64,000 nt of DNA, from assembly GCA_027382625.1 (NCBI GenBank), contig JAJKFJ010022873.1, forward strand, positions 1 to 64,000, given 5' to 3'. This document shows positions 6,401 to 43,036 of this stretch, piece after piece (the stretch's first letter is position 1; each line of letters starts with the position of its first letter). The position numbers and the translations under genes are program-made. The DNA is from Tetmemena sp. SeJ-2015 (taxonomy: Eukaryota > Ciliophora > Spirotrichea > Sporadotrichida > Oxytrichidae). A model generated the notes under the pieces. The model ran no database searches. It saw only the letters and a list, made by a program, of their open reading frames with translations, and was not told the DNA's origin.

Positions 6401-7834
6401 AAATCCGGTAAAGAAGGAAATTTTTAACATATAAATGTAAAAATGCTAAAACCGAAGAAATTCAAGAAAAGAAGTTACCTTTTCTATCTGCATTTTTTGT
6501 ATGCATTACAGAAAAATTATTTGATAAGCATTTAATGCACTAATAAATTATTCTCATAGACCATTGCAAAATGATGCATTAAGATATCAGCCACTTCTAA
6601 CATGTTCCAAAGGTATTTATAAGTGATGAAGCTTCAAGCTACAACCTTCAGGAAATAAAAAGATAGTTGTTTAAAAAGTTCAATAAAAATACTGTTGAAA
6701 TAAGTACTCAAAAAGCTCCTTTAAATCCCGAAAATAAAGATAAGAATAGATTTATAATATAATATTCGCATGATATAACCTTTCAACCATTATCTGTACA
6801 GAATAAAGGTAAACTCTAAATTATTCACTTTCCTAAAGTCCCTAAAATAATTGCAGATATTTAATGAAATTATCCTTTTCATATTAATCTTACCTAAAAG
6901 AATATTTCTTATACTCTTTGATTTAATAAGGATGTAATATTAAATTAGATAAATTTTGATGAGATTATAGTAGTAACTTTGGACATTCTCTTAATTTTAT
7001 ATTCCTGAAATATCTTATTTTAAAATAATTTGTCTTTCTGAAAAATAGACTGAGGTCTTTGAGATTTAGTTTGAAATTGTATACAATATTATTTTACAAT
7101 TATTTTGCAATTATTTCCTTCCAATGAAAAGGCAAACTTCAAGTCAGACTAAACTAACTGTGAAGAAAGACAATTTTATTCTAACAACCTAAAAACCTGT
7201 TGAAGAGAAGAAAAAAAAAGCGATGCCCCTCAAAACAATTAACATGACAGTTCGCTTCAACTAGATCTCTCCCGCAAATAAGAAACAAAATGTTAAAAAA
7301 ATGGAAATACAAACTTAATGAATGATGACTAAGTAATTCTCTGAGGGATTTTTTCAAAGGAATAAAAGACTCAATTACAATTTTTTACCTCGAGTTATTA
7401 GAGCTCAGGTGTTTTCCTTTCTTTAATGTAACTGAATGTACTTAATATTGATTCAGTTGAAAAGAGGAGAAACAGAATCTCTGGATCTCATTCTAAGTTT
7501 AAAGGAGAAATAAGCAATGAAAGACTTTCTAAATATTTATGCTAGCCAAATACAATCTCCTCAAAAATGGATTCTTGAAAGATTTGCTTACATAGTTGGT
7601 CATTTTTAACGGTTTGAATACAGATTTTGTAAAATCCTAGACACCAACTCAATAAAATGCTATTTGAAGTTCTTACAAGTTATTAAGACTTCCATAGATG
7701 AAGAGATAGTAGTTGAACAATAGATAATTGACTAAGAGCAATCTTTAAGCAGTCTTAGAATATTTTAAGTAAACGTCTCTATGAAAGGGGTAGACAAGAT
7801 TTTGTTTTGAGATAAAGATTAGCTGCTACTTTCC

Positions 7835-7898
7835 GATCTTATCATTTTATTTTAGAACAATTGATTTAATATTAATCGATGTGTTCTCGTAATAATAA
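7835..7898. other. IES of L1, pointer GATC
   Basis: GATC at 7835-7838 and 7899-7902. Excision joins LLS-D to PFIQIGRERT in frame. Same pointer and position in L2 and L3. Confidence 0.75.
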
Positions 7899-7961
7899 GA
7901 TCCTTTCATTCAGATTGGAAGAGAGAGAACTTTAATTCTTAATAAACTGGAAATCTCTGGG

Positions 7962-8444
7962 AGTAAATTTAAATATGGAGTTCAAAAATATATCTATTAA
8001 AAAGAAAACAAACTTATTTACTTAAAGTGAAAGGCAAATCTAAGGAATAATTTATTTCTTTTTAAATCGAAAGAAGAAAAATCAGAGAATGATGATAACT
8101 GATAAAGTTCAAATGAAAAATTCATGAAATATAATGTGTTCTGGTTAATGATTTAGATTTGCTTGAGAGATCAGGCAGACTAGAAAAAGATTTTTAAAGT
8201 ATAAAATATCCTTTATACATAATCAACCTCAGAACAATTAATTCTAAAATTTAGGTTGTATTGGTTACTGTACTCTTTTTATTATAAAATTCAATTGTGA
8301 CTATTATTCATTCCTTCCTTTGAAATAAAATAATATTTTTGGTAATCTTTGATTAAATTATCTAAATTAAAAATATATTATAAAAATCATAATATAGGAG
8401 ATTAGATAGTGAATTTATTTTAATTTTGGTAAAGATTTAAAATA
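7962..8444. other. IES of L1, pointer AGTAA
   Basis: AGTAA at 7962-7966 and 8445-8449. Excision joins KLEISGSK to LSLIEEYG in frame. The insert is 483 bp and AT-rich. Confidence 0.8.
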
Positions 8445-8567
8445 AGTAAGTTAAGTTTGATTGAAGAATATGGAATTTTCTTTCAGGATTTCAAAACATA
8501 TTCAATTAGCGACAGCATAATTGGAAATCAACTAAAATAAGAGTACTTAGGATTAACTGGCTACGAT

Positions 8568-8734
8568 AATATTCAATAATTTATATTGGTCAGAATGTAT
8601 TTTTCGTTACAGCATTTTATTTAATAAAATATTAGAACTCGTATTAATTCAATTTAAAAATATTTAGTCTTTTAATTTAAAGAAAACTATAATTATTTTT
8701 CTAAGTGGTAGATTAATTTAAAAATGAATTTATG
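8568..8734. other. IES of L1, pointer AATA
   Basis: AATA at 8568-8571 and 8735-8738. Excision joins GLTGYDN to NQIARAER in frame, the only frame open in all three copies here. Confidence 0.65.
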
Positions 8735-8934
8735 AATAACTAAATTGCCCGAGCAGAGAGGAGTTAAAGGGCAAGCATAAAAAAGTTTGAGTAATTGAGA
8801 GGATTTAAGTTAATAAATACAAGTTTCTATGAAATGATTGTGCTAATGAACTCTCCAAACCTAACAAAATTGCAAATTTAGGATTCAATGGTAGGGTTTT
8901 CATGAACTTAATCTCGGATTGCACAACTCTAAAC

Positions 8935-8950
8935 TAGTAATATTTTATTT
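8935..8950. other. Very short IES of L1, pointer TAGT
   Basis: TAGT at 8935-8938 and 8951-8954, so only 16 bases would be removed. The excised frame reads LNQFSYQH, matching L2 and L3. Confidence 0.6.
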
Positions 8951-9006
8951 TAGTTCAGCTATTAACATGCTTAACAGCAAACTTAATAGAGGATTTATCA
9001 ACTCCC

Positions 9007-9044
9007 ATTCTTTAAATTTATAATCATTGTCATTATTTAGAATA
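9007..9044. other. IES of L1, pointer ATTCT
   Basis: ATTCT at 9007-9011 and 9045-9049. Excision joins QLPF to QMNYSNLRELKK in frame. Confidence 0.7.
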
Positions 9045-9126
9045 ATTCTAAATGAACTACAGCAATTTAAGAGAGCTAAAAAAGATAAATATAGGAGCAG
9101 ATAATCTCTAAAGTTTACTAGATTTC

Positions 9127-9256
9127 AAGCAAGAATTAATATTATTAAATTATCTCTATTAAAATATTTTAATATAAACTCTATTTTGATAATTCTTAAA
9201 TGATTTAATTATTTTAATAAGTTGATAATATAAATTCTTCATACTTTTAAATATAT
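9127..9256. other. IES of L1, pointer AAGCAAG
   Basis: AAGCAAG at 9127-9133 and 9257-9263. Excision joins SLLDFKQ to AFMSHPRA in frame. Confidence 0.8.
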
Positions 9257-10078
9257 AAGCAAGCCTTTATGTCGCATCCTAGAGCAAGTTCTATTTAGAT
9301 ATAACTTGAAGCAAGAAAAGACTTTTTAATCCTGGAGCATATAATAAATTAGTTGGTCTTTGCAGGAAACAAGAATGTGTAAATAAAAGCCAATCAGTTA
9401 GTGTTATTTTAAGTGCCAGATTCCTAATCTCGCAGCTAGTTGTATCTCTCTTTATTCTATACAAAATAATTGTATATAATAATTATATATATATATTTAA
9501 ACCACTTATGATTTTTTAATTAAAAAAATCTTTAAAGTTAGGAGATCAAAGTGTTTTGTAATGTAATTTAAATAAAGAATCTAAAGTGAGAAAAGATCTT
9601 AAAAACATTAAGATCTTCTAGAATTATCAATTTAATAGTCACAGAATTCATAATTCACTGATAAGTAAGAAGGGATTTAATCAATCTAATCAATTAATTA
9701 TAATCCTAAAATAGCATTAAAAAATACAATCGAGTTCAATTATTTCTTAATGAGTTTTAAATCAGTATTTACTTTTAAATTACTTTATTTTTCTGTTTAA
9801 AATTAAATTTAAATATAGCAAAATGCATTTGCAGTATTTAAAATACAATAAATTATTATGTGAGTATTTTATTCGAGAAGAGCGCAATCAAAGTCTTAAA
9901 TGAAACTTTTAAGGCCTTAAATTTCAGAATAACATCTGAAGCCATAGATTTTTAATTTATTATTTTTAGATGAATAATCATTCAAGTATTCTCTTATCTT
10001 AGAACAAATGTCAATGATGAAATGGAAATAGAGTCCCAGATTAAAATTTTAGTTCCTTCTGAAGCAAGCATATCCAAA

Positions 10079-10328
10079 ATATTTTGACCTGTATTCATAA
10101 TTAATTTATTATCCAATTTATTCAAAATATTGCTTAATCCGAGGATGTATTTTTTCCATACTTGAATTGAATAGCATTATAAAATAATCTTAAAAAGCTA
10201 CATTTGGAATCTTAAAATTATAATAATTATTTAGATTTACATCTGCTCCAAACAAATGAACTATAAACATAGATCATGATTTCTTACTCTCGGTCAACAA
10301 ATAGCAAACAGTGGTTATCTCCGTTACG
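10079..10328. other. IES of L1, pointer ATATTT
   Basis: ATATTT at 10079-10084 and 10329-10334. Without excision the frame hits TGA at once; with it SISKIF joins EYLSKLELLKF. Confidence 0.8.
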
Positions 10329-12126
10329 ATATTTGAGTATCTAAGTAAATTGGAATTACTAAAATTCATAAATGCAAGATCATTCCAACAAGATGAAGCT
10401 CTCATTCTGATATTTAATCTCTCTTTAAATTTATAATAAATGATGCAAATAAAAAGAAGAAATCTTACAAAAACTAGACCTTGTAAAATAAATGCTCACT
10501 CTCTCCAACCAGAAATGTTTGTCAATACTAAATAAATAACCATTAAAGTTATTTTAAATTGCATACTAGATCACCCTCTCTTCATTTTAATATTTTGTTG
10601 ATCATTGCGAAACAAGAAGCTGAAAGTATAGTTTTATAGAACTATTATGTATGGCAAAAGATTGCTTTACACTTGTGTTTTAAGATATTTTGACAACTTA
10701 GCAAGTTCTTTTAAGCTAAAAGTTTTTAATAACTCTGAATAGTATTAAAGATAAAAAATCTAAAAGCTTAGCTAGTACCGTTTACGCTGAGATTCTCAAT
10801 CTTACAAGTGAATCAAATCCCTTGAAATAAAATAATCTATATTTAGAAGATGATAGCGCAGAGTCTCTATTTTATAGTTTATATATTAGTCATTAATAAA
10901 CTTTTATTAATATTAAATATCATATTTTGCAATTAAATGGGTTCAAAGAGCATGCTTCATACAACCAAGATAAAGTAATGTTTATGGCAAAATTTATTAG
11001 AACATTAAGTAAGTTTTCGACAAGATCAATAGGATCAAAATTGTGCAAAAACTTATTTTCAGATACTTTATATTAACTTAATTTTATAGATTTGAAACTC
11101 TAAGAATTTGCGATTCTAAAATCTTTTAATAAATATTCCTTTTATAAATAATGAGGAAATAAAAAGAATGCAATATTTATTTTAACTTTTAAGCAGCATT
11201 TTTTCTTGAGCATTTTTAGTTAAAAATTAAAATATAATTTAAAACCACAATTTTTAATCTCACTATTGAATAAATTGAATCATAATAGATAATTTAATTG
11301 TATATTTTTATTTATACCTAATTTTATTATTGAAGATTAGTTTCTTTCTAAACAAAAAGAGTTCCCTATTTATTTAATTTAAAAACTAAGACTGCTTAAA
11401 GAAAATTAATATTTCGAATTTTGTAAATATTTCTTCTGATCAATATCAGAAGTACTTACTCTTGAAGTGGCCCAGTATTATAGAAGTATTAGAATGAAAA
11501 ACAGCTTAATTATATCTTAAATTTTGAGATCAAGAATAATTTAAATTTTAGGTTAAACTTTTAAATTTTAAAATTAAATTAAGCTGAATAGGAAATAACA
11601 GATCTTAAGACTTTGTAAAGGAAAGCGATAACTTTCTTTGGCATAAACCCCTTATATTAGAACAGGAAATGAAACTCCTCAAACAGACAACTCCATAGCT
11701 AAATATGTTTTATTATATTGTCTATAAGAATAATTATTTTTAGAATAATTTCAAATAGCTTAATTTAGTTCAGAAGAGAGAATAAAAGATTTAGCAATGA
11801 CTTTAAGAACACCATAATAATTTAGATTTTTCCTTCTTTATCCAAACACAACATTTATTATGAAATACCCTTAATTAATTTTCAGTTTGATTTAGTTTTT
11901 AATAATTCAATAATTTAAAATTTGATAAGTATTGATATGTGGGAGACACTTGAGTTGTCAGAATCAGCCATCTTTGAAACTGAGTTTCTATCAAATATGA
12001 ATAATTTAAGAGAAATTAAGTGCCATAACTCAATAATTATCTACCCAGGTTTACTTTCTAATCTTCAAAAACTAGAAATTTACTCTGTTGAATTTGCAGA
12101 TATGAAAAAATTTAAAGATACATTCT

Positions 12127-12400
12127 TTGAGAAACCAGTTTATTGTATCTAAGATTCATTGTTATTTGGCTATTAAATCCAATTATTTCTTAAATGTCTT
12201 ATAAAGATGAATAAATCAGAGGCTATATTCATTTCTATTAAAATATTTGTTTAGTTTGATTGAGCTAATTAGGTTGGTTCTTTAAGCATTTTGAAGAAAA
12301 TGAAGTTAGACATTTTAGAATCAAACCTTCAAAAAATGATTAAATACTTATATCTATAACTTATTATGAGCAAATAAATTTCACATTTATATTTTGATAA
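12127..12400. other. IES of L1, pointer TTGA
   Basis: TTGA at 12127-12130 and 12401-12404. Excision joins KDTFFE to WKDFVELIP in frame, as in L3. Confidence 0.75.
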
Positions 12401-12579
12401 TTGAATGGAAAGACTTCGTAGAATTAATTCCTCATCTTTACGAAAATACAAGGACAAAGTAGCAAAATTAGAAAAAAATTAAAATCGCAATTCAAAATAG
12501 TGTCACATTTAAGCAAATAATTAAAGAGGGATTTGTATAAGGCTTTAATAATCTTTTCATTCAAATTCGTAAGTTATCA

Positions 12580-20250: not shown

Positions 20251-21530
20251 TCGTACTCATATTTTTTGAAGAAAAAATTTTTAATTATCGATTAAGTTTA
20301 AAATTGAAACTCTATCTGATTATATAGATTTGATAGTTTTAAATATACTAAAAGCTTGCAGTAATAAGTATATTTTTTATCATATAATAGTAAAAGGAGA
20401 GCTGCACAAGAAGTAGAGAATTTATCATGCTTATATTTTTGACGTATTTTATGAGCAATCAAATTATATAAAATTGAAGCATTCTCTCTTAAAAGTAAAG
20501 AGTCACTCTAAACAATCTCATTAGAATTACAATAAGCTCACTTCTCTTTGTAGTAGCAGATCTTCCATCATAGATAGTTTCCTTATCTCAAGTTCTTTCC
20601 ATAGATTATATCACACATCCATTGTTTAAATAACGTATAACACTGTGAATTTAGTAAGCTAAGGCATTAAAATATTGATGATCTTTTATATTAGAAGTTT
20701 TATTAAATATTCTAATAATTAAAATGAAAGATTAATATAAGAACAAAGATTATTATTTCGAAAATTAAGGAAATTAATTAGAATGAAAATCATGAGATTT
20801 CTCTAAAATTTTAAATAGGTAGAATTAGCAGCTTTATTTACAACTGTAATACAATACTTTATGCTAATAGAGCACATTAGAGTATATTTGTACCTTTTAA
20901 AATGGTAATATAAGCATTTTTATGATATTAAAGATGATTTTTTATAATAAAACAACAAATTTGTAAACCTATATTTAGACTCTTAATAAAATTATTTTCA
21001 AAATTTTTATTTTTATTAATTTTTGATTTAAGAATTTTTAATATATAACTAATAAATAAAACTCTTTTCCCCATGACATTAAGAAAATAAATCTGAATTT
21101 ATTGGTAATTTGTTCAATGTTTTTATTTAATTTGGTTATAAAATTGCTGTATGTTTAAATTCTCAAATGTTTATCTTATAACAAAGCATAAAGCTATGTT
21201 TGATGATGACCCTTAAAATTAGAAATTCATCTAATAAAATTCATTTTAAATTTTTACTTCTTTTGTAGAACGAGATCATATTTTTTAAAAAAAACTGACC
21301 AATTTAATCACTTTTTTTTCCGCAGAAGCAAGGGCCTTTCCCCAAAGATTTTCAAAAATTTTTATTTTTTTTTTACTTTAAAAAAACGGAAGTTTTTCAA
21401 ATTAAAAAAAATTTTAAAGGATTTTTCCACAAAAAAATTTTAAAAGACTATTGTTTATCTGAAATTATAATAGCTCTTTGTGTTTTAATTGAGTAATTTT
21501 TAAATTTATTTTTCCCAAATTTTTTGATCA
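20250..21530. other. AT-rich remainder of the insert in L2
   Basis: No matching coding block. A short smeared patch (21290-21430) resembles the low-quality blocks. The open frames are AT-driven. Confidence 0.35.
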
Positions 21531-22183
21531 AATAAAAAAGACAACAAATAATCCAAAGAATCGATTAAAACTCCGAGAATTAAAAGCTTGAAGAAGAGAA
21601 AGAAAAGGATGAGAAGACCCCAAAATCATTTAATTAACCAGCTATATTCATTGAGACCTCCACCGCTACTAAAAAATAATCGACTAGATAATTGGCTGAA
21701 GGCTTTTTTGAAAGAAATAAAAGACTCAAATACCATTTTCTACCTAGAGTGATTAGAGCTCAGGTGTTTTCTTTCCTTTAAAATAACTGCATGTTCAAAA
21801 TAGTGATTTAGTTGTAAAGAGGAGAAACTGAATCTCTCAATCTAATTCAAAGTTTTAAGGAGAATAAATAAGACTTTCTAACAATTTATGCATACAAAAT
21901 GCACTTTTCTCAAAAGTGGCTGCTTTAATGATTTGCTTACATAGTTGAGCACTTTTAAATATTTGAATATAGAATTTATAAAATCCTAGATACTAACTCA
22001 ATCAAATGCTATTTGAAGTTCTTACAAGCTATAAGGACTTATCTTGAGAAAGGATTAATTTTTGACTCAAAGAAAATAATAACGGAAGAAAAGTAGATTA
22101 CTAAATGAAGAATTTTTGTAAATCTCGAAATTAAAGGAGTTGATAAGATTTTGTATAGAAAGGAAGATGAGATTTTACTCAAT

Positions 22184-22245
22184 GATCTTATCATTAAAAT
22201 TTGACATGATTTATTTTAAGTGATATATTTTTAAATAAATAATAG
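22184..22245. other. IES of L2, pointer GATC
   Basis: GATC at 22184-22187 and 22246-22249. Position equals that in L1 and L3; L2 needs one further base for frame. Confidence 0.65.
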
Positions 22246-22308
22246 GATCCTAATAGATTCAATTGGAAGAGAGAGGACTTTAATTCTAAATGAACTCAAA
22301 ATATTAGG

Positions 22309-22730
22309 AAGTAATTTTGTATATAATTTGCACAAATTAAGCAATAAATAATTAAAGCATTTAAAAGATTGAAATCAGATACTCCTAAATCTTAAAATTT
22401 TTCTTGATTTCTTATAAGTTAAAATTATAGAGTTATACAGTGCTAATTTTTAAATGATTTAGATCGCTTAAAATATTAGCTCTCTTTTTATTATTTAAAA
22501 TTGCTTACATTAGTTTTTAATATGAATCTGCCGAATAAATAAGCAATAGATTGCATTAAACTAAACTAAGTAGAATATGTAGTAGTAAATAATATATTTA
22601 AATAAAATTGAAAATTTTTTAATCAAATTCTTCTTAAATTTGAATTAGATTATTGTTTTAAAAAAAAATTTAAAACATTAAATGTGCTTGTTTAATGAGA
22701 TTATTTCTTTTTTAAGCATTTAATTAAAAA
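22309..22730. other. IES of L2, pointer AAGTAA
   Basis: AAGTAA at 22309-22314 and 22731-22736. Excision joins ELKILGSK to LSLIEEYG in frame. Confidence 0.8.
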
Positions 22731-22854
22731 AAGTAAGCTAAGTTTGATAGAAGAGTACGGCCTTTTCTTTCGTGATTTCAGAGTATATACAATTAGAGAT
22801 AGTGAAATAGGCAAAAAACTAAAGAAGAATATTTAGGATTATCTGAAACAGATG

Positions 22855-22999
22855 ATATTAATCAAAAATTGCTCAATATTAAATAATTTTACTTATTTAT
22901 TTTAAAACTAAACAATTATACTCTTAATTCGTATAACAAAAATATAGATTAATAATATTGTAATTTTTTCTAGTAGATTATTCTAAAATGTATTTAAGA
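22855..22999. other. IES of L2, pointer ATA
   Basis: ATA at 22855-22857 and 23000-23002. Excision joins ETDD to NQIARAERNQ. The pointer is shortened relative to AATA of L1/L3. Confidence 0.55.
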
Positions 23000-23196: not shown

Positions 23197-23211
23197 TAGT
23201 ATTTTTTATTA
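23197..23211. other. Very short IES of L2, pointer TAGT
   Basis: TAGT at 23197-23200 and 23212-23215. The 15-base excision gives LDQFSYQH. Confidence 0.6.
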
Positions 23212-26681: not shown

Positions 26682-29323
26682 GCTTAATATATAATTTACA
26701 AAATATATGATGCAACCTTAATTTATCAATAAATAAATTTATATTTAAGCTGAATAGGCGATAACTGATAAGAAGATTTTATAGAGAGTACTAGAACATT
26801 TAACCCTGATAAAATCTCAAAATTAGAGTAGGACATGAAACTCCGCAAAAAATCTATCCCATAGCTCAATATAATTTTCGATACAATTTAAAAATATATT
26901 TTTAATTTACTTTAATATATTATCTAGATATTTTCGAATAGATAGTTAGAAACTTTAATTTTTCTTGAATAAATAAGTTATTAGACAATTTATTTAAATA
27001 TGATTGAACAGGAAACATACTATTCTTTTAATTTTAATTAATTTATATGCTTAAAATTGTGTATGAAATATGTGGGAGACCCTTGAGTTGTCAGAATCTG
27101 TGATCTTTGAAACTGAGTACTTATCAAATATGAATAATCTAAGATAGATTAAGTGTCATAACTCTCTAATTATCTACCCAGTTTTCCTTTCTCGCCTTAA
27201 AAAATTAGAAATTTACTCTGTTGAGTTTTCAGATATGAAAAAATTTAAAGGAACTTTCTTTTCTAGATCAGGTTATTTCTCCTAGAGTGAAACATTATTT
27301 GGGTATTCAATCCTATTTTTTAATAAAAATTATTAAATTATTTAAATAAGAGCTTTGAAGTTAAATAACTTATTTTTCTTTATGGTTTTGATTAGTCAGC
27401 TACTATTGGATCTCTCGTCATCTCAAAGAAGATGAAATTAGATATTTTAGAATATAAACCAAATAAATTTACAAAAATCACTATATTTATCTCTTAAAAT
27501 CAAATAATTTCCTCATATATATATTTACAATTGAATGGAAAGAATTCGTAAAATTAATTCCTTGCTTAACTAAATCTAGAAAATTACAACTTATGAAATC
27601 TAGCAAAATCAAAGTTAAGATCCATGATAAATCCTTTTTTTAGGATATTATAAAAGAAGGATTTGTAGAAGGATACAATAATCTTTACCTGGAAGTTGAC
27701 AAATTATTTAAAAATTCTAATTAAAAAGAAGAGAACTTGAAATTTATTAAAAAAAAGTATTGGCCTTTCTCAATTCATAAAAAAAGATGATTTATCAAGA
27801 AGCCTTCTTCGGGATAGGATTACTGTAGAATATTTAGAAGGTTAATTAATTAAATTTCTAAATACTTGTTTTTATTCTGAGCTTATTGATTATCAAAACC
27901 TTAATATTTTATGATTTTCTACTTAAAGAGGCTAAGATTTTTTCACTTAACCATTTGATAGATATGGTAGATTGAAAAGAGAAATCTGACGGTGGGCTTT
28001 GGCGGTGACGTGGCACAACTGATGAAGGAGTTACGCCTGTGAATTACTTTAAATCGATTAAGTATTATATGCCCGTTAGTGGTTCTTAATTCCTAATAAA
28101 TTAAATGAGAAGAGAAATCAAATTTAGCATTCAAAAGATGTGAAGAGCTCTTAGGACTAATTTATGAATAAACTATTTCAAATAAAATGACCTTCATGTT
28201 TATTTCTATTGATAGGATTTATACTTTATTTATTTTCGTTTTATTAAGAACTAATAAGTTAGATAAGCTGCATTTTTGTATTCAACTATTTCTAGTTTAA
28301 TTTGGCTGATATCAATCTTCAATCTAAATGAAGCTTTTATTTTATTATATATTAAGCTAAAACTGGGGACTTGCTCAATTTATCACTTTGTGACTTGATG
28401 TATTAAATTTGCGAGCAAACTCTCAAGCAAGACTTTGACAAAAATTATTAAAGCCCAATCTTAGTTAAGAATAAGTATCTCCACATCTCATTCTCAAAGA
28501 CTCAAACAAAAGATTAAAAACTAATAAAATCAACAATCACCCTCAAATTCCCTTTACTATAACTAATGATAAATTTAAAAATAACTTAAGATATCTTATT
28601 TATATACCAATAATCACACCAAACAATTAATTGTCATATTTTTGACCAAATTAGCAAATGTATGGAAATATTTATAATAAGTTTTACAATCAAATTCTTT
28701 TACCAATTGTTTTCTAATCTTCAAATTATTTTAATTTTCAAAGAAGGTAATTGTAAATAATTTGCGTTATTAAATAAATATAAAGCTAATTTGTTGTAAA
28801 AAATAATACTCCATAAAAATGAAAAAATGTTTTCACATTTACCCCTCACTAGTAGTGGTGTCATATTTAGGCCTTAAAGAATCGGTTAGGATTTCAACTA
28901 TATGCAAAGAGTAGTCATAGTTCACAAGAAATAAGCTTGCTAGTGTTTTCAAAGGATATAGCTATAGCATTGATGTTAATGAAAGAAATCTTAATAAATT
29001 TCGAAATAAGAGTCTTTATTTCCTTGATATTGTTAGTAGCATTACACTAAATCTTTGATAGGAAACTTCTCTTGCCCTTATCTGGAATATATTGAATGAT
29101 ATTTTTAAATTCTTTACAGGCATCTATTTTCCTCTCCTAAACAAAGAGATTCTTCTATAATTGGATACCTTTCTTACTGATAGCATTTAACATTATAATC
29201 CACATGAGAAACTTAACTTATGTTTTAAGTTTTCACATTACAAAGCTATTGAGATACTAGATTTAAATTCAAGACAATTGAAACAACTTAGCTCTGAAGA
29301 TTAAAATTTCTTTAAGAACATCT

Positions 29324-32450: not shown

Positions 32451-33515
32451 TGATATTACTTATTAAAACAGCAAAATATATCAGGCAAAGATCTATTTTC
32501 TTTATACTTTAAATGAAATTAGAGAGTCCTAAGAAAAATTATGAATAGATTCTTTATAGAAGATAGTTTTAAAAATGGAGAAAATCCTTTTCAATTTTCC
32601 ATGTAATTTATTAAGAAATTAAAGTTTATATTAAGCCATGAGCTTACTAGATGATAAGTATTTAAATTTGATAGACATCGATTCTATTGATCACATGGGA
32701 TTCTTTATTTCTTATTAAACCATTTAAATCTGATATGATTTTTCTTTATCTGAAAATATGAATTAAGAGTATTTCCATTTAATCTAAAAATTGTATATAA
32801 TATTATTTAGTTTCAAATGAAAAAACATACTTCCAGCCAGCCTTAATTAAAAATCAATAAAAAAACCAAGAAAAAAATAAAAACCTAAAAACCAGAAGAA
32901 AAAGAAGAAGAGAAGAAACAAAATGTGAAGACCCCAAAATCAGTTGTTTATCCAGCTATATTCAGTACCACTGCTAGTAATATATCTTAGAATAAAATAT
33001 TGGATACATAATCACAATAATTGACTAAGCATTTATCTGAGGGATTTCTGGAAAGAAATAAAAGGCTAAATTACCATTTTTTACCTAGAGTTATTAGAGC
33101 ACAGGTGTTTTCTTTCATTTCAAATAACTGGATGTTCAGAATAGTGAATTTGTTGAAAAGAGGGGAAACAGAATCTCTTAATCTAATTCAAAGTTTTAAG
33201 GAGAGTGAATAAGATTTCCTAAAAATTTTTGCGTACAAAATAGAATCTCCTCAACAATGGCTTCTCAACTGATTTGCTTCCTTGGTTTAGCATTTTTAAA
33301 GATTTGAATATAAATTTTACAAAATCCTAGACACAAACTAAATCGAATGCTATTTGAAGTGCTTACAAGTTATTAAGAGTTAAATAAATATCGATAACTC
33401 AGAACAAATGAAAACGGATGGAAGCTAAATGACTCATTGAAGGATTTATTTGAACGTAGAATTGAAAGGGGTTGATAAGATTTTGTATAGAAAGGAAGAT
33501 GATATTTTACTATCC

Positions 33516-33588
33516 GATCTTATCATTAAAAATGGGATAATTTAATTTATTTTTTTGAATTTTTCCTATAAATAACAAGATACTTTAA
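33516..33588. other. IES of L3, pointer GATC
   Basis: GATC at 33516-33519 and 33589-33592. Excision joins LLSD to PIGGERALIL in frame. Confidence 0.75.
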
Positions 33589-33642
33589 GATCCTATTGGA
33601 GGAGAGAGAGCTTTAATTCTAAATGAACTCAAAATCTCAAGG

Positions 33643-34065
33643 AGTAAAATAAATTATTAATGGGAGAAAAAATCAATACAAAGTATTTAAAAAGTTTGAA
33701 TTGATATAATCCAGCATTAAAAGTTTTTTTTATTAATGCAATAGCTTCCAAATTATTCTTGATTTCTTCTAGGTTAAAATAATGTGGAAATAGAGTGGCA
33801 GTATATTAATTATTTATAATCTCAAGGCATAATAAAGTATCTAAAATTATTTAGAAGTATTTATTTCAGTTTCTCAATCTAAAACAAAAAATAATAAGCA
33901 ATAGATTTTATTAAAATGATTTAAGATAAATAATTAGTAGTTTATAATTTATTAAAATAAATTTAGACTAATTTTATCTTCCAAAATTTAATGCAATAAT
34001 CCTTATTTAATTGATTTATAATAAAACTGAATATTTAAATATTTTTGTTTGTTTAAATTAAATGA
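33643..34065. other. IES of L3, pointer AGTAA
   Basis: AGTAA at 33643-33647 and 34066-34070. Excision joins ELKISRSK to LSLIEEYG in frame. Confidence 0.8.
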
Positions 34066-34188
34066 AGTAAGCTAAGCTTGATAGAGGAATATGGGATATT
34101 CTTTCAGGACTTCAAAACCTATACAATTAACGATAGTGAAATAGGAAAAACACTAAAATAAGAGTATTTAGGATTATCTGCCACTGAC

Positions 34189-34320
34189 AATATTAGTCAT
34201 AATTTGTTCTAAAATTATAAAATTTTGATTATTTATTTTAACCTTAAGAATTTTATTTTCATGGATGTTAAAATATTGATGTTTTTATATGCGGTAGATT
34301 ATTCTAAAAATTTATTTAAG
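34189..34320. other. IES of L3, pointer AATA
   Basis: AATA at 34189-34192 and 34321-34324. Excision joins SATDN to NQIARAEGNQ in frame. Confidence 0.65.
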
Positions 34321-34518
34321 AATAACTAAATTGCCCGAGCAGAGGGGAATTAAAGAGCAAGCATTAAACATTTTGAGCATGCGAGCAGATTTAAGATTAG
34401 AAATACACGTTTTTATGAAATGATAGTGCTTTTGAACTCTCCAAAGCTTACAAATTTGGAAATTAATTATTCAAAAGTACCATTTATGAACTTACTTTCG
34501 GATTGCACTGCTCTAAAC

Positions 34519-34534
34519 TAGTTTAATTTTATTT
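34519..34534. other. Very short IES of L3, pointer TAGTT
   Basis: TAGTT at 34519-34523 and 34535-34539. The 16-base excision gives LNQFSYQH as in L1. Confidence 0.6.
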
Positions 34535-34587
34535 TAGTTCAGCTACTAACATCTTTAGCCAACTAACTCGAGGATTTATCCACTACC

Positions 34588-34623
34588 ATTCTTAAATATG
34601 TTATCTTTATCATTATTTAAATT
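34588..34623. other. IES of L3, pointer ATTCT
   Basis: ATTCT at 34588-34592 and 34624-34628. Excision joins PLPF to QMNYSNL in frame. Confidence 0.7.
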
Positions 34624-34704
34624 ATTCTAAATGAACTATAGCAATTTAAAAGACTACAGAAGATCAAACTTGGAACAGATAAATTGTAAGATTTACTTAA
34701 CTTC

Positions 34705-34789
34705 AAGCAACAGTTTATTTTTATAATTAAAATCAGTAACATTATTATTTGAATATCTAAATAGTTAAAATATTTTTTTTTAAATATGG
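34705..34789. other. IES of L3, pointer AAGCAA
   Basis: AAGCAA at 34705-34710 and 34790-34795. Excision joins DLLNFKQ to AFMSHPQARR in frame. Confidence 0.8.
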
Positions 34790-34988
34790 AAGCAAGCATT
34801 TATGTCCCATCCATAAGCTAGAAGAGTTTAAATCATTCTAGACGCTAGGAAAAATGTTCTAATACTTGAGTAAATAATAAAATAGTTGATCTTTACAGGA
34901 AATAGTAACGTCCAAATAACAGCCTAGTAGATAGACTTATTTTTACCCTAAAATGTGCAATCTAGGAACTTGTATTAACTTTCTTTAT

Positions 34989-36003
34989 TCTTAATTAAAA
35001 TTAATTATCATTTGATGATCTTTAAATTTTAAATTAAAATTGTTTTTAGTCTAGATATAAATATTCGGTGATTCATTTAATTTTAAATAATATCCTTTCT
35101 AAATTAAAAATAATAAATTAGAATTAAAGATATTGAAATAAAATTATTAAGTGGATCAAAAACGTTAGAAATTGAAGTTTAACAATATGATTTCAATTAA
35201 ATGTAGTTAAGTTTGGGACGAATTTATATTAAGAGTACTCTGAAAATATTCAGATTTTGTGAAGCAGAATCATAGACTATTTTAAGAGGAGAAAATTTTT
35301 TTAAAAAAATAAATGCCTTAAAATATAAAAAATTATTAAATCATAGAGAGCTCTAATAATTACCATTCTTTTTTAAATATGAATCTCTAAATAAAAAAAA
35401 GAAATTAAATTTTGTTAATATAAAATATTTTTATTAAATGAGTGTTAATAGAATAATTAAATTTACTTATTCTAGAGAAGCGCAATCAAAATTTTAAATG
35501 AAATTTTTAGTTCATCTAAAATCAGAATAACATCTGAAGCCATAGATTTATAAATTTATTTTAGATGAATATAGCTGAGAATTCAATAAAAAAGAGAATT
35601 AAATTAGATATTAAATTAAAATGGAATAAATCAATGGCATTTGAAGTGCGTCCAATTTAAATAATTATTACACCATTCGATTCAGCATCAAATTCTAAGA
35701 AATATTTATCCTTGTAACTTATGTGTGGGAGCGCTCAGTAAAGAGTTATAAGTGACACAGGTTATGATGAAGATGATGATGAGGATGATGAAGAATGCGC
35801 ATGTCATATCTCATGCTGAGAGGTGCTTCGAAGATGATTAAAGAAGAAACTCTTATTAATTTTTGATTCTCTATTGAACAAGCTGCAGTTCAGGGGTGAA
35901 TCAATGATTTGAACTAACAAAAAGTTGAAATTTTCCATTTATTATTTTAACCAATCACCGAATTATTTAATATTCCTACTATAATCATTCAAGTACGCTC
36001 TTA
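34989..36003. other. IES of L3, pointer TCTTA, with nested element
   Basis: TCTTA at 34989-34993 and 36004-36008. Excision joins LSLFL to EQMSSNEMEIE in frame. The insert carries the 0.41 kb element at 35572-35983. Confidence 0.65.
35572..35983 (+). mobile_element. 0.41 kb TA-flanked element, copy 2, with known empty sites
   Basis: Flanks are GATGAATA on the left and TAATCATTC on the right. L1 (about 9970) has the empty site GATGAATAATCATTC, and L2 (about 24692) GATGAAAAATCATTC, so TA was duplicated or is the target. The termini TAGCTGAGAAT and, inverted, TAGTAGGAAT form short imperfect inverted repeats. Inside is an acidic tract (DEDDDEDDEE reading) followed by CACHISC and TGA. A divergent partial copy of its middle may lie at 38705-38770. 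Confidence 0.8.
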
Positions 36004-36086
36004 TCTTAGAATAAATGTCAAGTAATGAAATGGAAATAGAATCCAAGGTTAAAATATTACTACCTTCTGAAGCAAGCATATCCAAA

Positions 36087-36339
36087 ATATTTTGAACTGT
36101 ACTCCGAGTTAATTAATTTCATTTAACTCTAATAAAAAAATTCTTTTCCTCTGAGGTGAATTTATTTTTGTAAATCAGTTGATTAATTAATAATTAATTG
36201 GTTTTAAAAAGATACGTTTTTATTTCAAAAATAATATAATAATCAATACTTCTAACTTCAAACGATTTCTCGGGGAATGATGGATACTTAAGAAAGCAAT
36301 TCACATGTTAAATAAATAGCAAGCAGCTATCTGCAAACG
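36087..36339. other. IES of L3, pointer ATATTT
   Basis: ATATTT at 36087-36092 and 36340-36345. Excision removes an immediate TGA and joins SISKIF to EYLSKLELLKF. Confidence 0.8.
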
Positions 36340-36445
36340 ATATTTGAGTACCTCAGTAAATTAGAATTACTAAAATTCATAAATGGAAGATCTTTCTTAC
36401 AAGATGAAATACTCATTCTGATTTTGAATATTTAAATTGTGAACG

Positions 36446-37629
36446 ATATTATAGATTTAAGCAGGACTTTCAAAATTTTGAATCACTCTAGAGGCTGTTG
36501 ACAAACGTTAGGTGAGGACAGGCTGAGGTTCCTGATGTAGTACTCCTGGTTTCTTGGCAGTTTGATTCTTTCTCTATTCTTGGTGGAATTCATTTGAAAA
36601 ACCGAATTAATTAAATTAAAGTACACTCTATTAAATTAAGCCAAACTTCATTTTGATCTTTTAGACTTAGACTATTCAAATAAATGGGCAAATACTTTTA
36701 AATTGGGAATAGATTACGCATCAATATAATTATTACCTACGGGGTATTCCAATAGTCTAAACTTCCATTCTGAGAAATGTGAAAGAGATATTTAATTAGG
36801 GCGAGATGGGTGTGAATTATTATTTTAAATATAAAAGTTCATTACAAATGGACTATCACTGACGAAGGCTCCGAACTCAGCACAAAGCATGGAGATAGGA
36901 GGCCCCGATTCTAGGACTGCGCCAATGCCACTACCTCCAATACTGCACTTCTTGCGATATTTGGGCAGGATTGGTGAAAGAAAGTCTTATATGCGCGGGG
37001 AGACTTGCCCAGATGGAGAGACCCAGAGTCCACTAGTAGTCAGCTTTCCTTGGACTGAGATACAGCTGGCAGGATTTTTCGGGAGAACCATGATCTAGGG
37101 CTTTCAGCTAGCCAATGCAGTAGGAGAGAGATACCACAGGCTTGCCGATACAGTCGCAGAGCAAATGACATATGTCAGAAAGGAAATGTTTGTTTGAGAA
37201 GAATAAGATGCGCTTTGTACTCGGCGAATGCAGTTTAGTATGTTAAGTTAAATTTTTAAGCACCCATCTCGCCCTAATTAAATATCTCTTTCACATTTCT
37301 CAGAATGGAAGTTTAGACTATTGGAATACCCCGTAGGTAATAATTATATTGATGCGTAATCTATTCCCAATTTAAAAGTATTTGCCCATTTATTTGAATA
37401 GTCTAAAGTCTAAAAAGATCAAAATGAAGTTTGGCTTAATTTAATAGAGTGTACTTTAATTTAATTAATTCGGTTTTTCAAATGAATTCCACCAAGAATA
37501 GAGAAAGAATCAAACTGCCAAGAAACCAGGAGTACTACATCAGGAACCTCAGCCTGTCCTCACCTAACGTTTGTCAACAGCCTCTAGAGTGATTCAAAAT
37601 TTTGAAAATCCTGCTTAAATCTATAATAT
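36446..37629. mobile_element. 1.18 kb element with about 367-bp inverted arms
   Basis: Arm 36446-36812 is the near-perfect reverse complement of 37261-37629. A few single-base differences are visible, for example GGACTTTC against GGATTTTC. The 448-bp centre is GC-rich and AT-poor compared with everything around it. L1 (about 10425) and L2 (about 25160) lack the element between the same flanking words, so it inserted into L3 alone. The ends read ATATTATAGATTTAAGC and its mirror. No target duplication can be separated from the palindrome. Family not identified. Confidence 0.85.
36889..37200 (+). CDS. Unknown ORF in the centre of the long-arm element
   Basis: ATG at 36889 opens about 103 codons to TGA near 37198, reading one TAG as Gln: MEIGGPDSRTAPMPLPPIL ... 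GFQLANAVGERYHRLAD. Its composition (Pro, Gly, Arg, GC-rich codons) differs from all neighbours. The frame is also open upstream to the arm edge, so the true start is uncertain. It could be cargo captured by the element, part of a transposase gene, or a stray macronuclear-type gene segment. I do not recognise it. Confidence 0.3.
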
Positions 37630-39253
37630 TAATTAATGATGCTTATAAAAAGAAGAAAACAGGAAAACATTAGACCTTGTAAAATAAATGCTCGCTCTCT
37701 CAAATCAGAAATGTTTGTAAATACTAAATAAATTACTTGTAATAGCTAATTTTAATTGCATACTCGCTCTCCCTCACTGCATTTTAATTCTGATCATCAT
37801 TGTAATAAAAGAAGAAGAGAGTATAGTTGGATATAACTAGTATGTATGGCAACAGACAAATTTACTCTTGTGTTTTCAGATATTTTGACGATCATTCAAG
37901 TCAACTACCGCAAATACTTTTTTGAAATCCTGAATGATACCAAGGATGAAAACTCTTAAAGTGTTGCTAGTTTTATTAACACAGAGATTCAAAGCCTGTC
38001 TAACGAATCAAATCTCTATACATTTTTATCTCTTATCTAATATTTCTATTGCTATAGGAAATAATTTTAAGAGTTAGATTTAAATATATTAATTAATTCT
38101 TAAAGATTTTAATTTTTTTGATTTAAATGGACTGAGAGAGCGTAATTTCCTAAGCCACTTCCCAAAAATTAGATTTTAGGCAAATTGTATTCAAATATTG
38201 AGTAAGTTTTCTATATTTTAATAATCTGGCGCTTAAAGATACAGTTTAATCAAGGAAAAGATAATTTTAATTGCTAAACTATATTTTATAGATTTGAAAC
38301 TCTAGAAATTTGCAATTCTAAAATCTATTAAATAAAATTATAATTATTAAAGAAATCAAATATGATATATTTAATTCACAATTTTGAAACATTTCCTTAT
38401 AAATATTATATAAATTATCTTTAAATTTTAAAATTGCCAACTCATTTAACTATATTATGTTATTGTAGGACCAAATTTATTTAAAATCGATTATTTATTA
38501 TATAATATACAAAGTATTGCAATAAAGAGGTAGCTGAAATAGTTGAAAACCTCCATATCTTCAGTTTATTAAACAGTTAATCAAAAGAAAAAATAAGAAG
38601 TCCTTCTTTCATTATATACAAAGGGTTAGTAAGTGGATATATGTGATACTCACATTGATATTAATTTCTAATTCAAGTCTTCAGGTAACTTGACCAGCTT
38701 TTAAATAGGTACTGAATACTCCCACACAAAGTTGCAAGGATATAAATCTCTTAATTATTATGATCTAATGAATGATATAGTCAATATATAAATCTGAGAT
38801 TCTTCATCTCTCTCTCTGAATTAATTCGTTTAATAATTTCTAATTTAAAGATACTTTATATTAAATTTCATTAGCTATAATGAAAATTAATTTAATTTAA
38901 TAAACCTCGATTATGTTTTTTAATCTCACTATTGCAAAAATTAAAGCAAAATCTGTGTTATATATTTAATTTGCACTCTTAATTGCTCTATACTGTAATT
39001 AATTTTTAAAAATATTGAGTTCCTCTCATTTTATTTTTGTAATTTAATCTTAAATCAATATATGAAGAAATTATATTCAAGATTTACAATTTTTAAATAT
39101 ATTTCAAAACCCCATAATATGATAAGAAAGTGAAAATAAGTCGTGTATAATTAATTTCTTTATTAATACTTATAATCATGCGAGTCAAACGCGAAATTAC
39201 TCAAAAATAACTACATGATCCATCCTATCTCAGTTTCATTTTGACTCTAAGGT

Positions 39254-39720
39254 ATGGATGTAGTCACCCTTATCAGTAGTAATAGCCAGTTCTCAACATC
39301 AACTCCATCGCAAAAATTTGAGAGTGCCACACTATACTCTCGCATTTGAAAGTTGCTTCGAAAATATAAGAAGAGAAAACATTGAGGAAGCATCGGTGCA
39401 AGGAACTGCAGGCTACTTCCCATAGAGACAGACTTGGCTCAACGGTTCAGTGCAGTGGGACATTTGGTCTATAGTTGCAATCATACTTGAATGCGATATG
39501 AAACCAGAGGAATACTACTAGTGTGAAAGTGAAGATGATGCAATATAATTCGCAACAAGACATTGTAAGATAGACAAGGTATCAGAACCTTTGAAAAAGT
39601 TAGAGAGTAATAATCAAGCAACCTATGAAACCTAACACTCAGTTATCTGAGATAGAGAAGCACTTAAAGGTATAAAATTCAGAGAATATGAGACAGACCG
39701 TCAAGGTCACCTTCCTAGAA
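39254..39720 (+). pseudogene. Protein-kinase C-lobe fragment, probably from the TBE 57-kDa gene
   Basis: A short opening reading frame (MDVVTLISSNSQFSTSTPSQ, 39254-39349) ends in TGA. A second frame overlaps it from about 39342 and reads EEASVQGTAGYFP, then WDIWSIVAIILECDMKPEEY, to TGA at 39648-39650, with continuation DREALKGIKFREYE after it. GTAGYFP matches the kinase P+1 loop (GTxGYxxPE, with Gln for Glu) and WDIWS..AIILE the DxWSxGxxxxE helix (with the Gly lost). The N-lobe and catalytic HRD/DFG segments are absent, so it cannot be an active kinase. TAG/TAA read as Gln. Confidence 0.6.
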
Positions 39721-40249
39721 GACTTTAGATTGCCTGTTTAGGGTTAAAATTTAGCATTATTATTAGTATTATAAGTAAAATATGATTAGGTAATTAAGAA
39801 ATACAAATACAAAAATATTTTAACAGAAGTATCCTGTTTTTTATTATTACATTAAGAAATACAAAGGAAAGTTCAAATTGTATTATAAAATAGTTTATTC
39901 ATAATGCATAAAGTAATAAGTTTAAGCTTTCAGAAAATTATATCAGCATGATGAAAATTTCGAGTTTATATGTGCCATTATAATCTAAAATAACTATATG
40001 AATGGCTAAAATATTAATAAGATGAAGAAATATTTATACCCACATAACCATGATAGCAAAGTTTTTACAAAGAGCACTTAAATGAGAATCCCGCCGGCAT
40101 AGATATCAACCTTTCGGTGATATTTATTTATTTGATTAATTTATTAACTTTCTTACTTAAACTCCAGCCTGTAAATGATGTTATAATACATTTCAGTGTA
40201 TTTGGATAATTTAATTTTCTAATCATTATTAAATTAAAATTAAAATTCA

Positions 40250-40745
40250 ACGCACACGATCGGCACAAGGCACCGGTCGCCCTTTCCCTGAAGGCTTTCT
40301 GGTTTGGTAATCCGTTGGCTGGTGGGTGAGTGCTTAAAGGGGCAAGGGATAATGGCAGCCGAAGCCCTGGGGAAGGTGGTTGGGCTGCTCACTGGAGAGA
40401 TAATCAAAGGTGAGTGGTTCCCACTCACCCTCCTAATCCTGTTAGGCGTAGAGGGATGTGATCTATGGGCAAACACTCAGTCATGCAGTTGGACAGCGAA
40501 GCCAGACGCTACGGAGCAGCGACTTGCTCTCGGTCCTAAGCTACCCGATTTTTTTTCTCCTTTTAGGTATTTTTGGATGGTGAAGCCGGGGGCTTCTGCT
40601 CAGAATGTGAAGGTGGCGGGGGTGCCACGTGTTAATATCCCTATTCGGCTGGTAGGTTTGTGTGCGTCAGATAAGTGCGTCACAGCAATATGATTGACGT
40701 CACGGCCTATCTTATTTATGCCGGGGGCCCTTTAATTCCCTTAAT
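40250..40745 (+). repeat. GC-rich module, second copy inverted at 5310-5860
   Basis: About 0.5 kb of markedly GC-rich sequence lies inside the TBE-derived element. It carries a 129-codon frame (40304-40693, MVIRWLVGECLKGQGIM ... ending TGA) of unknown function. The copy at 5.3-5.9 kb preserves LWANTQS but not the rest of the frame. A perfect 9-bp hairpin sits at 40409-40429. Whether it acts as RNA, DNA structure or protein gene is open. Confidence 0.5.
40409..40429 (+). other. Perfect hairpin GGTGAGTGG-TTC-CCACTCACC
   Basis: Nine-base stem with a three-base loop. The inverted copy at 5659-5680 keeps the stem except for one mismatched pair. The GC content of the stem is unusual in this window. 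It is not followed by a T-run, so a simple terminator is unlikely. Confidence 0.6.
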
Positions 40746-41397
40746 TATTATTAATTTTCTAATCATATTTTTCTTATAATAAAGAAATTAATAACATACA
40801 ACTATTTTTCACTTTCCTTATCGTATTATGGGGTTTTGGAATTTTGATTCTATCTATAACAAAAGTTCTTATTCTTCTAGTAGTTCAGCATTTTAAAATC
40901 ATCAAAATTAGAAACAGCTTAAATAAATATTATTTGTCTAAATATAAATATTATACAAATATAATTTATTGTATTAAGATTTGTAATTTTTATTTAAAGC
41001 AGAATAGATGATAAAAGATAATAAGATTTTAGAGCGACTATTCCTTGATTCTTTCCTTTGAAATAAATCTCTAAATTAGAGCAGGATATGAAACTACTCA
41101 GAGACTAAACTCTCTAGCTTAATATTTTTTCGTTTTAATAATTAAAAAGTTTTATATTTTAAGTTAGAAATTTAAAGAATTTAAATGCTTAAAAATGTGT
41201 ATAAAATATGTGTGAGACCCTTGAGTTATCAGAATCTGCAATCTTTGAAACTGAGTACATTTCAAATATGAATAATTTAAGAGAAATAAAGTGCCATAAC
41301 TCAATAATTATCTACCCAGGTTTACTGTCTAGTCTTAAAAAGCTAGAAAATTATTCTGTTGAGTTTACAGATATGGAGAAATTTCGAGATAAATTCT

Positions 41398-41668
41398 TTG
41401 AGAATTCATTTTATCCTTGCGAATATTCATTTTTCTTTGGCTATTCAACCCTATATTTCTTCTTATTAAAATTATTATGTTAATAAATAAAGAATATTGA
41501 AGTTTAAAGAATTTTAATGATTTTGATTGACCAGACTCTGTTGAGCATCTAGCAATATCAAAGAAGATGAAATTAGATATTGTAGAATCAAACCTACAAA
41601 ATATATTATAAAGATCACTTTAATTAATCACTATTCAAATAAATAGGTTCCTTAAATTATTTTAATAA
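41398..41668. other. IES of L3, pointer TTGA
   Basis: TTGA at 41398-41401 and 41669-41672. Excision joins RDKFFE to WQEFVAIIPLL in frame. Confidence 0.75.
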
Positions 41669-43036
41669 TTGAATGGCAAGAATTTGTAGCAATAATTCCA
41701 CTTCTTACCTAAACTAGAAAAATACAGCACACAAATTCTAGTAAAATTAAAATTAAGATCTCGAAATATGCCTGCTTCAAAGATATTATAAAAGAAGGGT
41801 TTGTTGAAGGTTTCAATCTTCTATATCTGCAAGTTCCTCTATTATTCTTAAAATTAAAATATTAATTTATATAAATTAAAAAATTCTAGAGGTAAAGCAG
41901 TATCTTTTTATTTTAAATAATTCAAGTTGATTTATAATGTCTCTAAAAATGTTAAACGAGAATTCAAAATTTTATAAATAAATTCAGTTTTTAAAAAGAG
42001 TTATAATACAAGCTTCAATTGTTTAAATTTATAATTTACTCTTTGTAGAGTCTTCCATAATTTTATTCCAGAATGTATGAGCAAAAATTATTTTTATAGT
42101 TTAAATTGAGAATATTAACTATCTTTATTTCTTTAAGCTGATTCTTTTAGTTCTCTTAGCTGATTTTTTAAAAATATACTGTTTAAATTTGCTGCTTTTA
42201 TAAAGTATTTTTACAAGAGAATTAAAGGCTTTATGTGTTCCATACATTTATCTTTTTCAATGATATTAAGATTTTATATCTTGTACTTTAATAAAACAAA
42301 TAAATTAGTGGACACCATGTATTAAATTGCTTTTAAATTAATTTGATTGATAAGATTATACAAACAGGATGAAGCCTTTATTATATTATTTTAAGCAAAA
42401 ACTGCTGGCAATATGCTCAATTTATCACTAAGTGACCATATGTATCAAATTTGTTAGCAAACTCTCAAGGAAGACTTTGACATAAGTCAATAAAACCCAA
42501 TCTTAGTTAAGAAAAAACATTTCCACATCTCATTCACAAAGACACAAGCAAAAGACAACAGCATAATTAAATCAACAATCACACTCAAATTCCCATTGAT
42601 ATATCTTTAAATAAATATCAATCTATTTTAAATATCATAATTTATTCTCCAATAGCTAACAATTCGATATCGTATTTTTGACCAACTAAATAAATGTACA
42701 CTATATTTTATAAGCAATTTATAACCAAATTCTTTTGCTTATTTTTGCTATCTGACTCAATTAAGATTAGTGGTCATAAATCTATGATTTATTGTTTAGT
42801 TATCATTCATTGTGTAAAATGTTTAAATTAAATATCTTAATGTGTTGATTTGAAAATTAGAATAATATTTCATCTATTTATCATTCTAAAAATTAAAAAT
42901 ATTTTTTCTCTCAAACTGAAGTGCTCGAAGGGAGATAGTTAAATTAAATATTTAAAGACTTCATTAAGAGAAGATATTTGCACGTGGTATTGATATGCTT
43001 ATTATAATTATATTTATTTTAATTTTACTTGCAGCT

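Follow-up and report, generated by a model that had tools for sequence, protein, structure and literature searches.

Three copies of one gene, here called L1, L2 and L3, lie in tandem in the 64,000-nucleotide stretch of DNA analysed (the window), and are cut at the same codons by inserts flanked by short direct repeats. They are very probably germline copies of a single spirotrich gene with internal eliminated sequences (IESs) older than the duplications, a reading to which we give a probability of about 0.86. That the IES set predates the duplications had been proposed in a first-pass annotation, and is supported by the flanking repeats, the preserved reading frame, the variation of insert length modulo 3 and the lack of GT-AG ends. 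The high A+T content of the inserts, the C4A4 telomere repeats and sense TAA and TAG of the assembly, and one presumed macronuclear/micronuclear contig pair with a deletion at TATTA fit it as well. Matched sites and repeats are found in three copies whose insert bodies have drifted, and therefore the IES set would predate both duplications. The window is part of contig C3509 (70,132 bases) of assembly G000 (146.2 Mb, 5213 contigs), and was translated with NCBI table 6.

Three tandem copies and their shared junctions

Self-BLAST of the window revealed L1, L2 and L3 as collinear, same-strand paralogs in tandem. Their limits, obtained from self-BLAST, alignment and frames, are as follows.

7124..12556, + strand: copy L1, blocks and inserts, end approximate
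14673-14854: further 3' piece of L1, in a damaged stretch
21500..28716, + strand: copy L2, start and end approximate
32817..42750, + strand: copy L3, end approximate

Coding blocks 1-10 occur in germline order and orientation on the + strand in all three copies, which is the non-scrambled arrangement. Identity over these blocks is 75.7% for L1-L2, 75.7% for L1-L3 and 79.4% for L2-L3, and L2 and L3 appear by sequence to be the closer pair. L1 and L3 align at a start ATG that is missing from L2. No Pfam family was found above cut-off for the L gene.

For each junction, direct repeats near the block ends were listed, and the one that agreed with the homology frame to the left and right of the insert was chosen. 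Nine junctions are fixed by reading frame at the same codons in all three copies, and direct repeats of 3-8 bp flank the inserts at 27 of 27. The repeats (candidate pointers) are, from junction 1 to junction 9, GATC, AGTAA, AATA (ATA in L2), TAGT, ATTCT, AAGCAA, TTTATTC (L1, L2) or TTATTCT (L3), AGAT and ATATTT. The inserts are listed below with the repeat of each copy and the excised length.

7835..7898, + strand: L1 insert 1, pointer GATC, 64 bp
7962..8444, + strand: L1 insert 2, pointer AGTAA, 483 bp
8568..8734, + strand: L1 insert 3, pointer AATA, 167 bp
8935..8950, + strand: L1 insert 4, pointer TAGT, 16 bp
9007..9044, + strand: L1 insert 5, pointer ATTCT, 38 bp
9127..9256, + strand: L1 insert 6, pointer AAGCAAG, 130 bp
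9451..9867, + strand: L1 insert 7, pointer TTTATTC, 417 bp
9945..9966, + strand: L1 insert 8, pointer TAGAT, 22 bp
10079..10328, + strand: L1 insert 9, pointer ATATTT, 250 bp
22184..22245, + strand: L2 insert 1, repeat GATC, 62 bp; join off by one, an end at 22255 with GAT keeps the frame
22309..22730, + strand: L2 insert 2, pointer AAGTAA, 422 bp
22855..22999, + strand: L2 insert 3, pointer ATA, 145 bp
23197..23211, + strand: L2 insert 4, pointer TAGT, 15 bp
23265..23301, + strand: L2 insert 5, pointer ATTCT, 37 bp
23384..23454, + strand: L2 insert 6, pointer AAGCAAG, 71 bp
23649..24592, + strand: L2 insert 7, pointer TTTATTC, 944 bp
24671..24693, + strand: L2 insert 8, pointer AGAT, 23 bp
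24805..25050, + strand: L2 insert 9, pointer AATATTTT, 246 bp
33516..33588, + strand: L3 insert 1, pointer GATC, 73 bp
33643..34065, + strand: L3 insert 2, pointer AGTAA, 423 bp
34189..34320, + strand: L3 insert 3, pointer AATA, 132 bp
34519..34534, + strand: L3 insert 4, pointer TAGTT, 16 bp
34588..34623, + strand: L3 insert 5, pointer ATTCT, 36 bp
34705..34789, + strand: L3 insert 6, pointer AAGCAA, 85 bp
34985..35466, + strand: L3 insert 7, pointer TTATTCT, 482 bp
35543..35561, + strand: L3 insert 8, pointer TAGAT, 19 bp
36087..36339, + strand: L3 insert 9, pointer ATATTT, 253 bp

Downstream of ATATTT, further interruptions occur at shared places, with ambiguous repeats. Junctions 10-13 each have several candidate repeats, and at junction 10 L1 continues without an insert.

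The first-pass annotation had listed the same nine repeats at the same codons of all copies, with TCTTA given as imperfect in L1 and TTGA as unclear in L2. Seven of them (GATC, AGTAA, AATA, TAGT, ATTCT, AAGCAA and ATATTT) do lie at homologous sites, with AATA present in L1 and L3 and only ATA in L2; the remaining two, TCTTA and TTGA, had to be given up. TCTTA was mis-set, as the L2 repeat that holds it (ATTCTTATT) shifts 933 and is out of frame; it was replaced by TTTATTC (L1, L2) or TTATTCT (L3), which keeps the frame in each of the three copies. TTGA is in frame only in L3 (38198/38294), and does not appear among the best-ranked repeats listed for L1 or L2. The AGAT junction, with inserts of 22, 23 and 19 bp, is additional to those nine. 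Insert lengths, described earlier as mostly similar between copies, are roughly so at seven of the nine junctions, but not at AAGCAA (130/71/85) or TTTATTC (417/944/482).

Excision of one repeat plus the insert preserves the frame at 26 of 27 joins (binomial P = 7e-12 at an expectation of 1/3, with repeats partly chosen for frame). Junction peptides are nearly identical among copies, such as SISKIF(E/Q)Y(L/I)SK in all three. For blocks 5-6 the frame ILNELQQF was dropped, and QFSYQH...PFQMNYSNL is continuous in L1 and L2. The claim of one continuous frame after excision is thus borne out for the joins, but not for the blocks themselves, which contain in-frame TGAs and frame changes in each copy. 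Insert length modulo 3 varies between copies at all nine junctions, and since the frame is kept on both sides the message must lack the inserts.

As a chance control, left ends were compared with wrong right ends. A shared repeat of at least 5 bases was found in 5/72 of these pairings and one of at least 4 in 31/72, against 5/9 and 8/9 of the true pairs. In 9/9 true pairs it is exactly at the junction that the best shared repeat falls, although the control is partly circular, the registers having been set on these repeats. Because repeats of four or more bases are this frequent in wrong pairings, a lone 4-base repeat is weak evidence, and it is the set of repeats with the frame that is strong.

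The A+T content of the inserts is 0.74-1.00, compared with 0.69-0.71 in the blocks, insert 9 being only slightly richer. GT-AG ends are absent from all 27 inserts, wherever within the repeat the equivalent cut is placed. The TA at both ends that marks Paramecium-type IESs is lacking, with no TA within GATC, ATTCT or AAGCAA. Inverted ends of the telomere-bearing element type, similar to C4A4, were also searched, and no C4A4 is present at the ends of inserts 1-9.

Insert drift, coding constraint and damage

An alignment of the three copies, suggested together with the first-pass annotation, shows blocks 76-79% identical and insert bodies that have drifted more. The search for related insert bodies covered seven junctions, the TAGT and AGAT inserts being too short. 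BLASTN at 1e-5 detected a match between copies at three of these seven (junctions 2, 3 and 9), for L2-L3 only. In a shuffle test, z exceeded 3 at junctions 1, 2, 3, 6 and 9 for L2-L3, at 3, 5 and 9 for L1-L3, and at 1, 3 and 9 for L1-L2, where three other values stood at 3.0. Junction 7 is the only one among inserts over 25 bp without a detectable relation in any pair. Gapped identity was not used for the insert comparison, as it is uninformative in AT-rich DNA. Judged from these comparisons, the insert bodies appear homologous yet far more worn than the blocks, with insert 9 seemingly the best preserved.

For the outermost 11 bp at either end of the inserts, the proportion of sites invariant in all three copies is about 0.5 (51 of 99 positions at the start and 47 of 99 at the end, a count within which the shortest inserts overlap), and it drops towards the composition level past about 12 bp. 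For reference, composition predicts 0.20, and the coding DNA on either side shows 0.64-0.69. This gradient can be explained by loss of register through insertions and deletions (indels), and no conserved motif of IES ends is claimed. Eight of the nine pointers retain a common core of 4-6 bp at both positions in all copies. At 0.12 substitutions per site per lineage, the estimated probability that all IES-side pointer copies stay unchanged in three lineages is 2e-7, a figure inflated by the post-hoc choice of repeats. The earlier statement that pointers stayed fixed and bodies diverged therefore holds at eight of nine junctions, with BLASTN relating only three of seven bodies, but it is not new. 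The repeats, their positions, the frame at the joins and the drift are direct observations.

The coding blocks carry a signal of constraint. The ratio of nonsynonymous to synonymous substitutions (dN/dS) was calculated for codons in the homology frame, with TGA codons excluded and 200 neutral simulations per pair. It is 0.38 for L1-L2 (95% 0.30-0.49; 533 codons; lowest neutral simulation 0.60), 0.43 for L1-L3 (0.34-0.54; 543 codons; lowest 0.61) and 0.34 for L2-L3 (0.26-0.44; 536 codons; lowest 0.57), so that all three pairs fall below every one of the simulations. Block 1 taken by itself gives a weaker signal: dN/dS is 0.43 for L1-L2 (lowest simulation 0.51) and 0.41 for L2-L3 (0.29-0.62; lowest 0.51), the latter despite TGAs in this block.

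L1 possesses in-frame TGAs at 7319, 7433 and 7808 and frame changes in blocks 4 and 9; L2, TGAs at 21929 and 22106 and a frame change in block 3; and L3, TGAs at 33270 and 33438 and a frame change in block 6. L2 and L3 have their TGAs at two common codons, both of which are AGA in L1. An extra TGA column at the poorly alignable L2 start was left out of this count. The spans between the shared stops, and two elements found in L3 only, are:

21929..22108, + strand: L2, first to second in-frame TGA (21929-21931, 22106-22108), common to L3
33270..33440, + strand: L3, first to second in-frame TGA (33270-33272, 33438-33440), common to L2
35570..35985, + strand: dispersed repeat of about 410 bp in L3 block 9 only, 88% identical to 29737-30156 reversed, with matches on other contigs
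36446..37629, unstranded: 1.18-kb element with 369-bp inverted ends (99.2%), after block 10, L3 only

A constraint of 0.34 between L2 and L3 (0.41 in block 1) is odd for genes that already share two stops. The alignment near the shared TGAs gives no hint of recent gene conversion, being by eye no more alike there than elsewhere. Damage together with constraint allows three readings: all copies may have died recently, blocks may be exchanged between them, or the stops may be read through.

Other elements are present in the late interruptions. The one at 39101-40842 in L3 has inverted ends that carry CAAAACCCCATAATA, similar to CAAAACCCC, and its end matches DNA beside a C4A4 motif on contig C363 (98.7% over 77 bp); by its sequence it looks like a decayed telomere-bearing element. 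A late L2 interruption contains a 48-bp inverted repeat (96%; 26290-26337 and 26634-26681).

Genome setting and neighbouring sequences

The motif CCCCAAAACCCCAAAACCCC has 67 exact matches in G000 (24 and 43 by strand), many of them overlapping in one array on contig C2828, and stands at the very first base of nine contigs. TAA and TAG are read as sense in AAA-family frames of G000, with TGA in 1 of 19 matches. These C4A4 ends and sense TAA and TAG suggest a genome that fits the spirotrich type.

Contig C298 opens with a 20-base C4A4 telomere motif (C4A4C4A4C4 at the first base), and matches contig C1815 at 95% in two pieces, bases 27612-29964 and 36472-38125. The 6.5 kb between the C1815 pieces start with C4A4 repeats and have TATTA at both ends, and a single TATTA is found in C298. 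This pair, elsewhere in the assembly, shows a deletion at a direct repeat with one repeat kept; C298, of which one end is seen, is presumably macronuclear and C1815 micronuclear. The matches of C586, C672 and C508 to their partner contigs contain no comparable gap (C508 judged from the match table alone), and C672 shows small gaps and lower identity in part. The IES load looks uneven.

Next to the L genes the window encodes a divergent family of five uninterrupted open reading frames (ORFs) on the + strand, at 45360-46625, 50890-52146, 55487-56713, 58497-59672 and 61902-63170. Their products start with MKKxLHIYP and are 24-38% identical to the 58497 member, and no Pfam family was found above cut-off in the four members scanned. 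These ORFs are IES-free neighbours of the IES-rich L genes. A further uninterrupted ORF at 43037-44773 (578 aa, TGA end) has itself as its sole match in the genome search, and no relatives were found in the protein search. Compared with L3 it is 21% identical over 552 residues (E 0.004 in an 8-sequence database under relaxed settings; nothing at default settings), a weak resemblance by which it is perhaps a remote IES-free relative.

Segments 6410-7160 and 18686-19423 are 89% identical and take in the first codons of L1, and an isolated L-like gene start at 19387 continues into another gene family. Inflated homopolymer runs (AAAA/TTTT/GGGG/CCCC) at about 13650-18600 and 21280-21430 resemble assembly or polishing damage; they were read directly to 15500 and at 21280-21430, the remainder being judged by low-complexity ORFs and self-matches. 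The first of these stretches contains the L1 3' piece. In the piece of contig C3614 from 16000 to 25999, bases 5935-6040 of that piece hold 106 bp that are 93% like the L3 5' end amid otherwise unrelated AT-rich DNA, possibly a polishing artefact.

Origin of the shared inserts

The L gene would be a micronuclear gene whose coding segments (macronuclear-destined sequences, MDSs) are separated by non-scrambled IESs, each bounded by a pointer of 3-8 bp, one copy of which would be left after excision in macronuclear development. The IES set would have been present first, with the gene then duplicated twice in tandem. Since then the coding blocks and pointers may have been held by selection, the pointers because a mismatched one would break the gene in the macronucleus, and the IES bodies would have drifted with many indels. 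Selection on matching repeats is thus the presumed cause of pointer constancy.

Several observations weigh against this explanation. The search of G000 detected no IES-free L copy, its 24 matches being 23 in the window and one 45-aa piece on C3614, and we therefore only infer excision. C1815 is 5% different from C298 and may represent another allele or a paralog, and a deletion at a repeat was found in one of the four telomere-bearing pieces compared with partners. No protein relative of the L gene was found at E 0.001, in searches of which one scored only the 8000 candidates sharing most words. None of the three copies is intact, each having in-frame stops and frame changes, a point that the first-pass annotation had not noticed. 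Block 1 of L1-L3 has a dN/dS of 0.62 (0.44-0.91), barely under the lowest simulation (0.63). L2 junction 1 is out of frame by one with GATC; a GAT at 22256, ten bases past the GATC copy, would preserve the frame.

A rival explanation is a dead array, in which once-functional IES genes decayed in the germline, are no longer processed or expressed, and keep their pointers as fossils. This would be compatible with IESs inherited from before the duplications, and we regard it as possible, if doubtful. TGAs and frame changes in all copies, with two TGAs common to L2 and L3, the two element insertions in L3 coding sequence, and the failure to find a macronuclear L copy in the assembly speak for it. 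However, dN/dS is under all neutral simulations in all three pairs, for L2-L3 even in block 1, the repeats still match at every junction, and some single-base shifts may be assembly errors, nearby stretches looking damaged. A woven macronuclear gene, put together from parts of L1, L2 and L3 so that each covers the broken blocks of the others, with selection keeping the joints compatible, is very improbable. The lesions are complementary, as the L1 TGAs are sense in L2 and L3 and the L2/L3 TGAs are AGA in L1, every block from 2 to 10 is readable in at least one copy, and constraint persists despite the lesions; but no copy has an unbroken block 1, which would call for exchange within that block as well, and with few lesions complementarity is expected by chance anyway. 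If weaving did take place, the pointers would be identical since the copies are interchangeable parts.

Use of the genes only in the germline nucleus, with blocks not destined for the macronucleus, seems very improbable. No macronuclear contig was found and uninterrupted ORFs of another family adjoin the L genes, yet modulo-3 length variation and matching repeats would be senseless if the inserts were kept. Independent entry at the same target sites after duplication is hardly credible: IESs are argued in PMC3464196 to be transposon remnants, but nine sites are common to three copies with ends in register, BLASTN relates the L2-L3 bodies at junctions 2, 3 and 9, and the shuffle test relates those of L1 to both others at 3 and 9. 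Spliceosomal introns removed from RNA can be almost dismissed. GT and AG letters do stand near the ends of inserts 2 and 4 (AGTAA, TAGT), but no insert begins with GT and ends with AG at any equivalent cut, pointers containing AGT are, by the account in PMC1805493, never frame-preserving as introns, and introns would sit poorly with lengths of 15-16 bp and of 944 bp within a single gene family.

IESs inherited from before duplication would agree with known ciliate systems. Lyu et al. 2024 (PMC10901763) report IESs at homologous sites of paralogs in Oxytricha and three other spirotrichs; in Oxytricha trifallax 34,741 of 232,861 IESs are conserved, 70.9% of the conserved ones in same-species paralogs. 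Similarly, IESs are at the same aligned position in L1-L3, but these were compared base by base including pointer sequence, unlike the genome-wide position scoring described there. In a pair of Oxytricha paralogs MDS boundaries are kept, with an exact match at one junction and a difference of 1-3 bp at two more (PMC4684698, 2015). As in L1-L3, the boundaries are conserved with short microhomology included; however, those paralogs share MDSs by alternative processing, whereas L1-L3 are three whole tandem copies. Paramecium ohnologs keep IES position, and their IES sequences diverge in the way that neutral DNA would (PMC3464196, 2012), which resembles position kept and sequence diverged in L1-L3; the IESs described there are TA-bounded, and the L pointers are varied repeats. 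Homologs of Oxytricha and Tetmemena keep pointer positions beyond chance, as L1-L3 do, but most pointer sequences differ there at conserved positions (PMC9797194, 2022), whereas eight of nine L junctions share a core of at least 4 bases in three copies, which may differ in age from those homologs.

The general principle is already published, and L1-L3 are an unusually clean further case. Three tandem copies with nine matched junctions form a compact natural experiment on the constants of programmed DNA elimination. What is held constant is the position of the joint and the repeat, not the insert sequence nor, at two junctions, its length. The triplet also lets one ask whether pointer identity is maintained by selection acting on the copies singly or by exchange among them.

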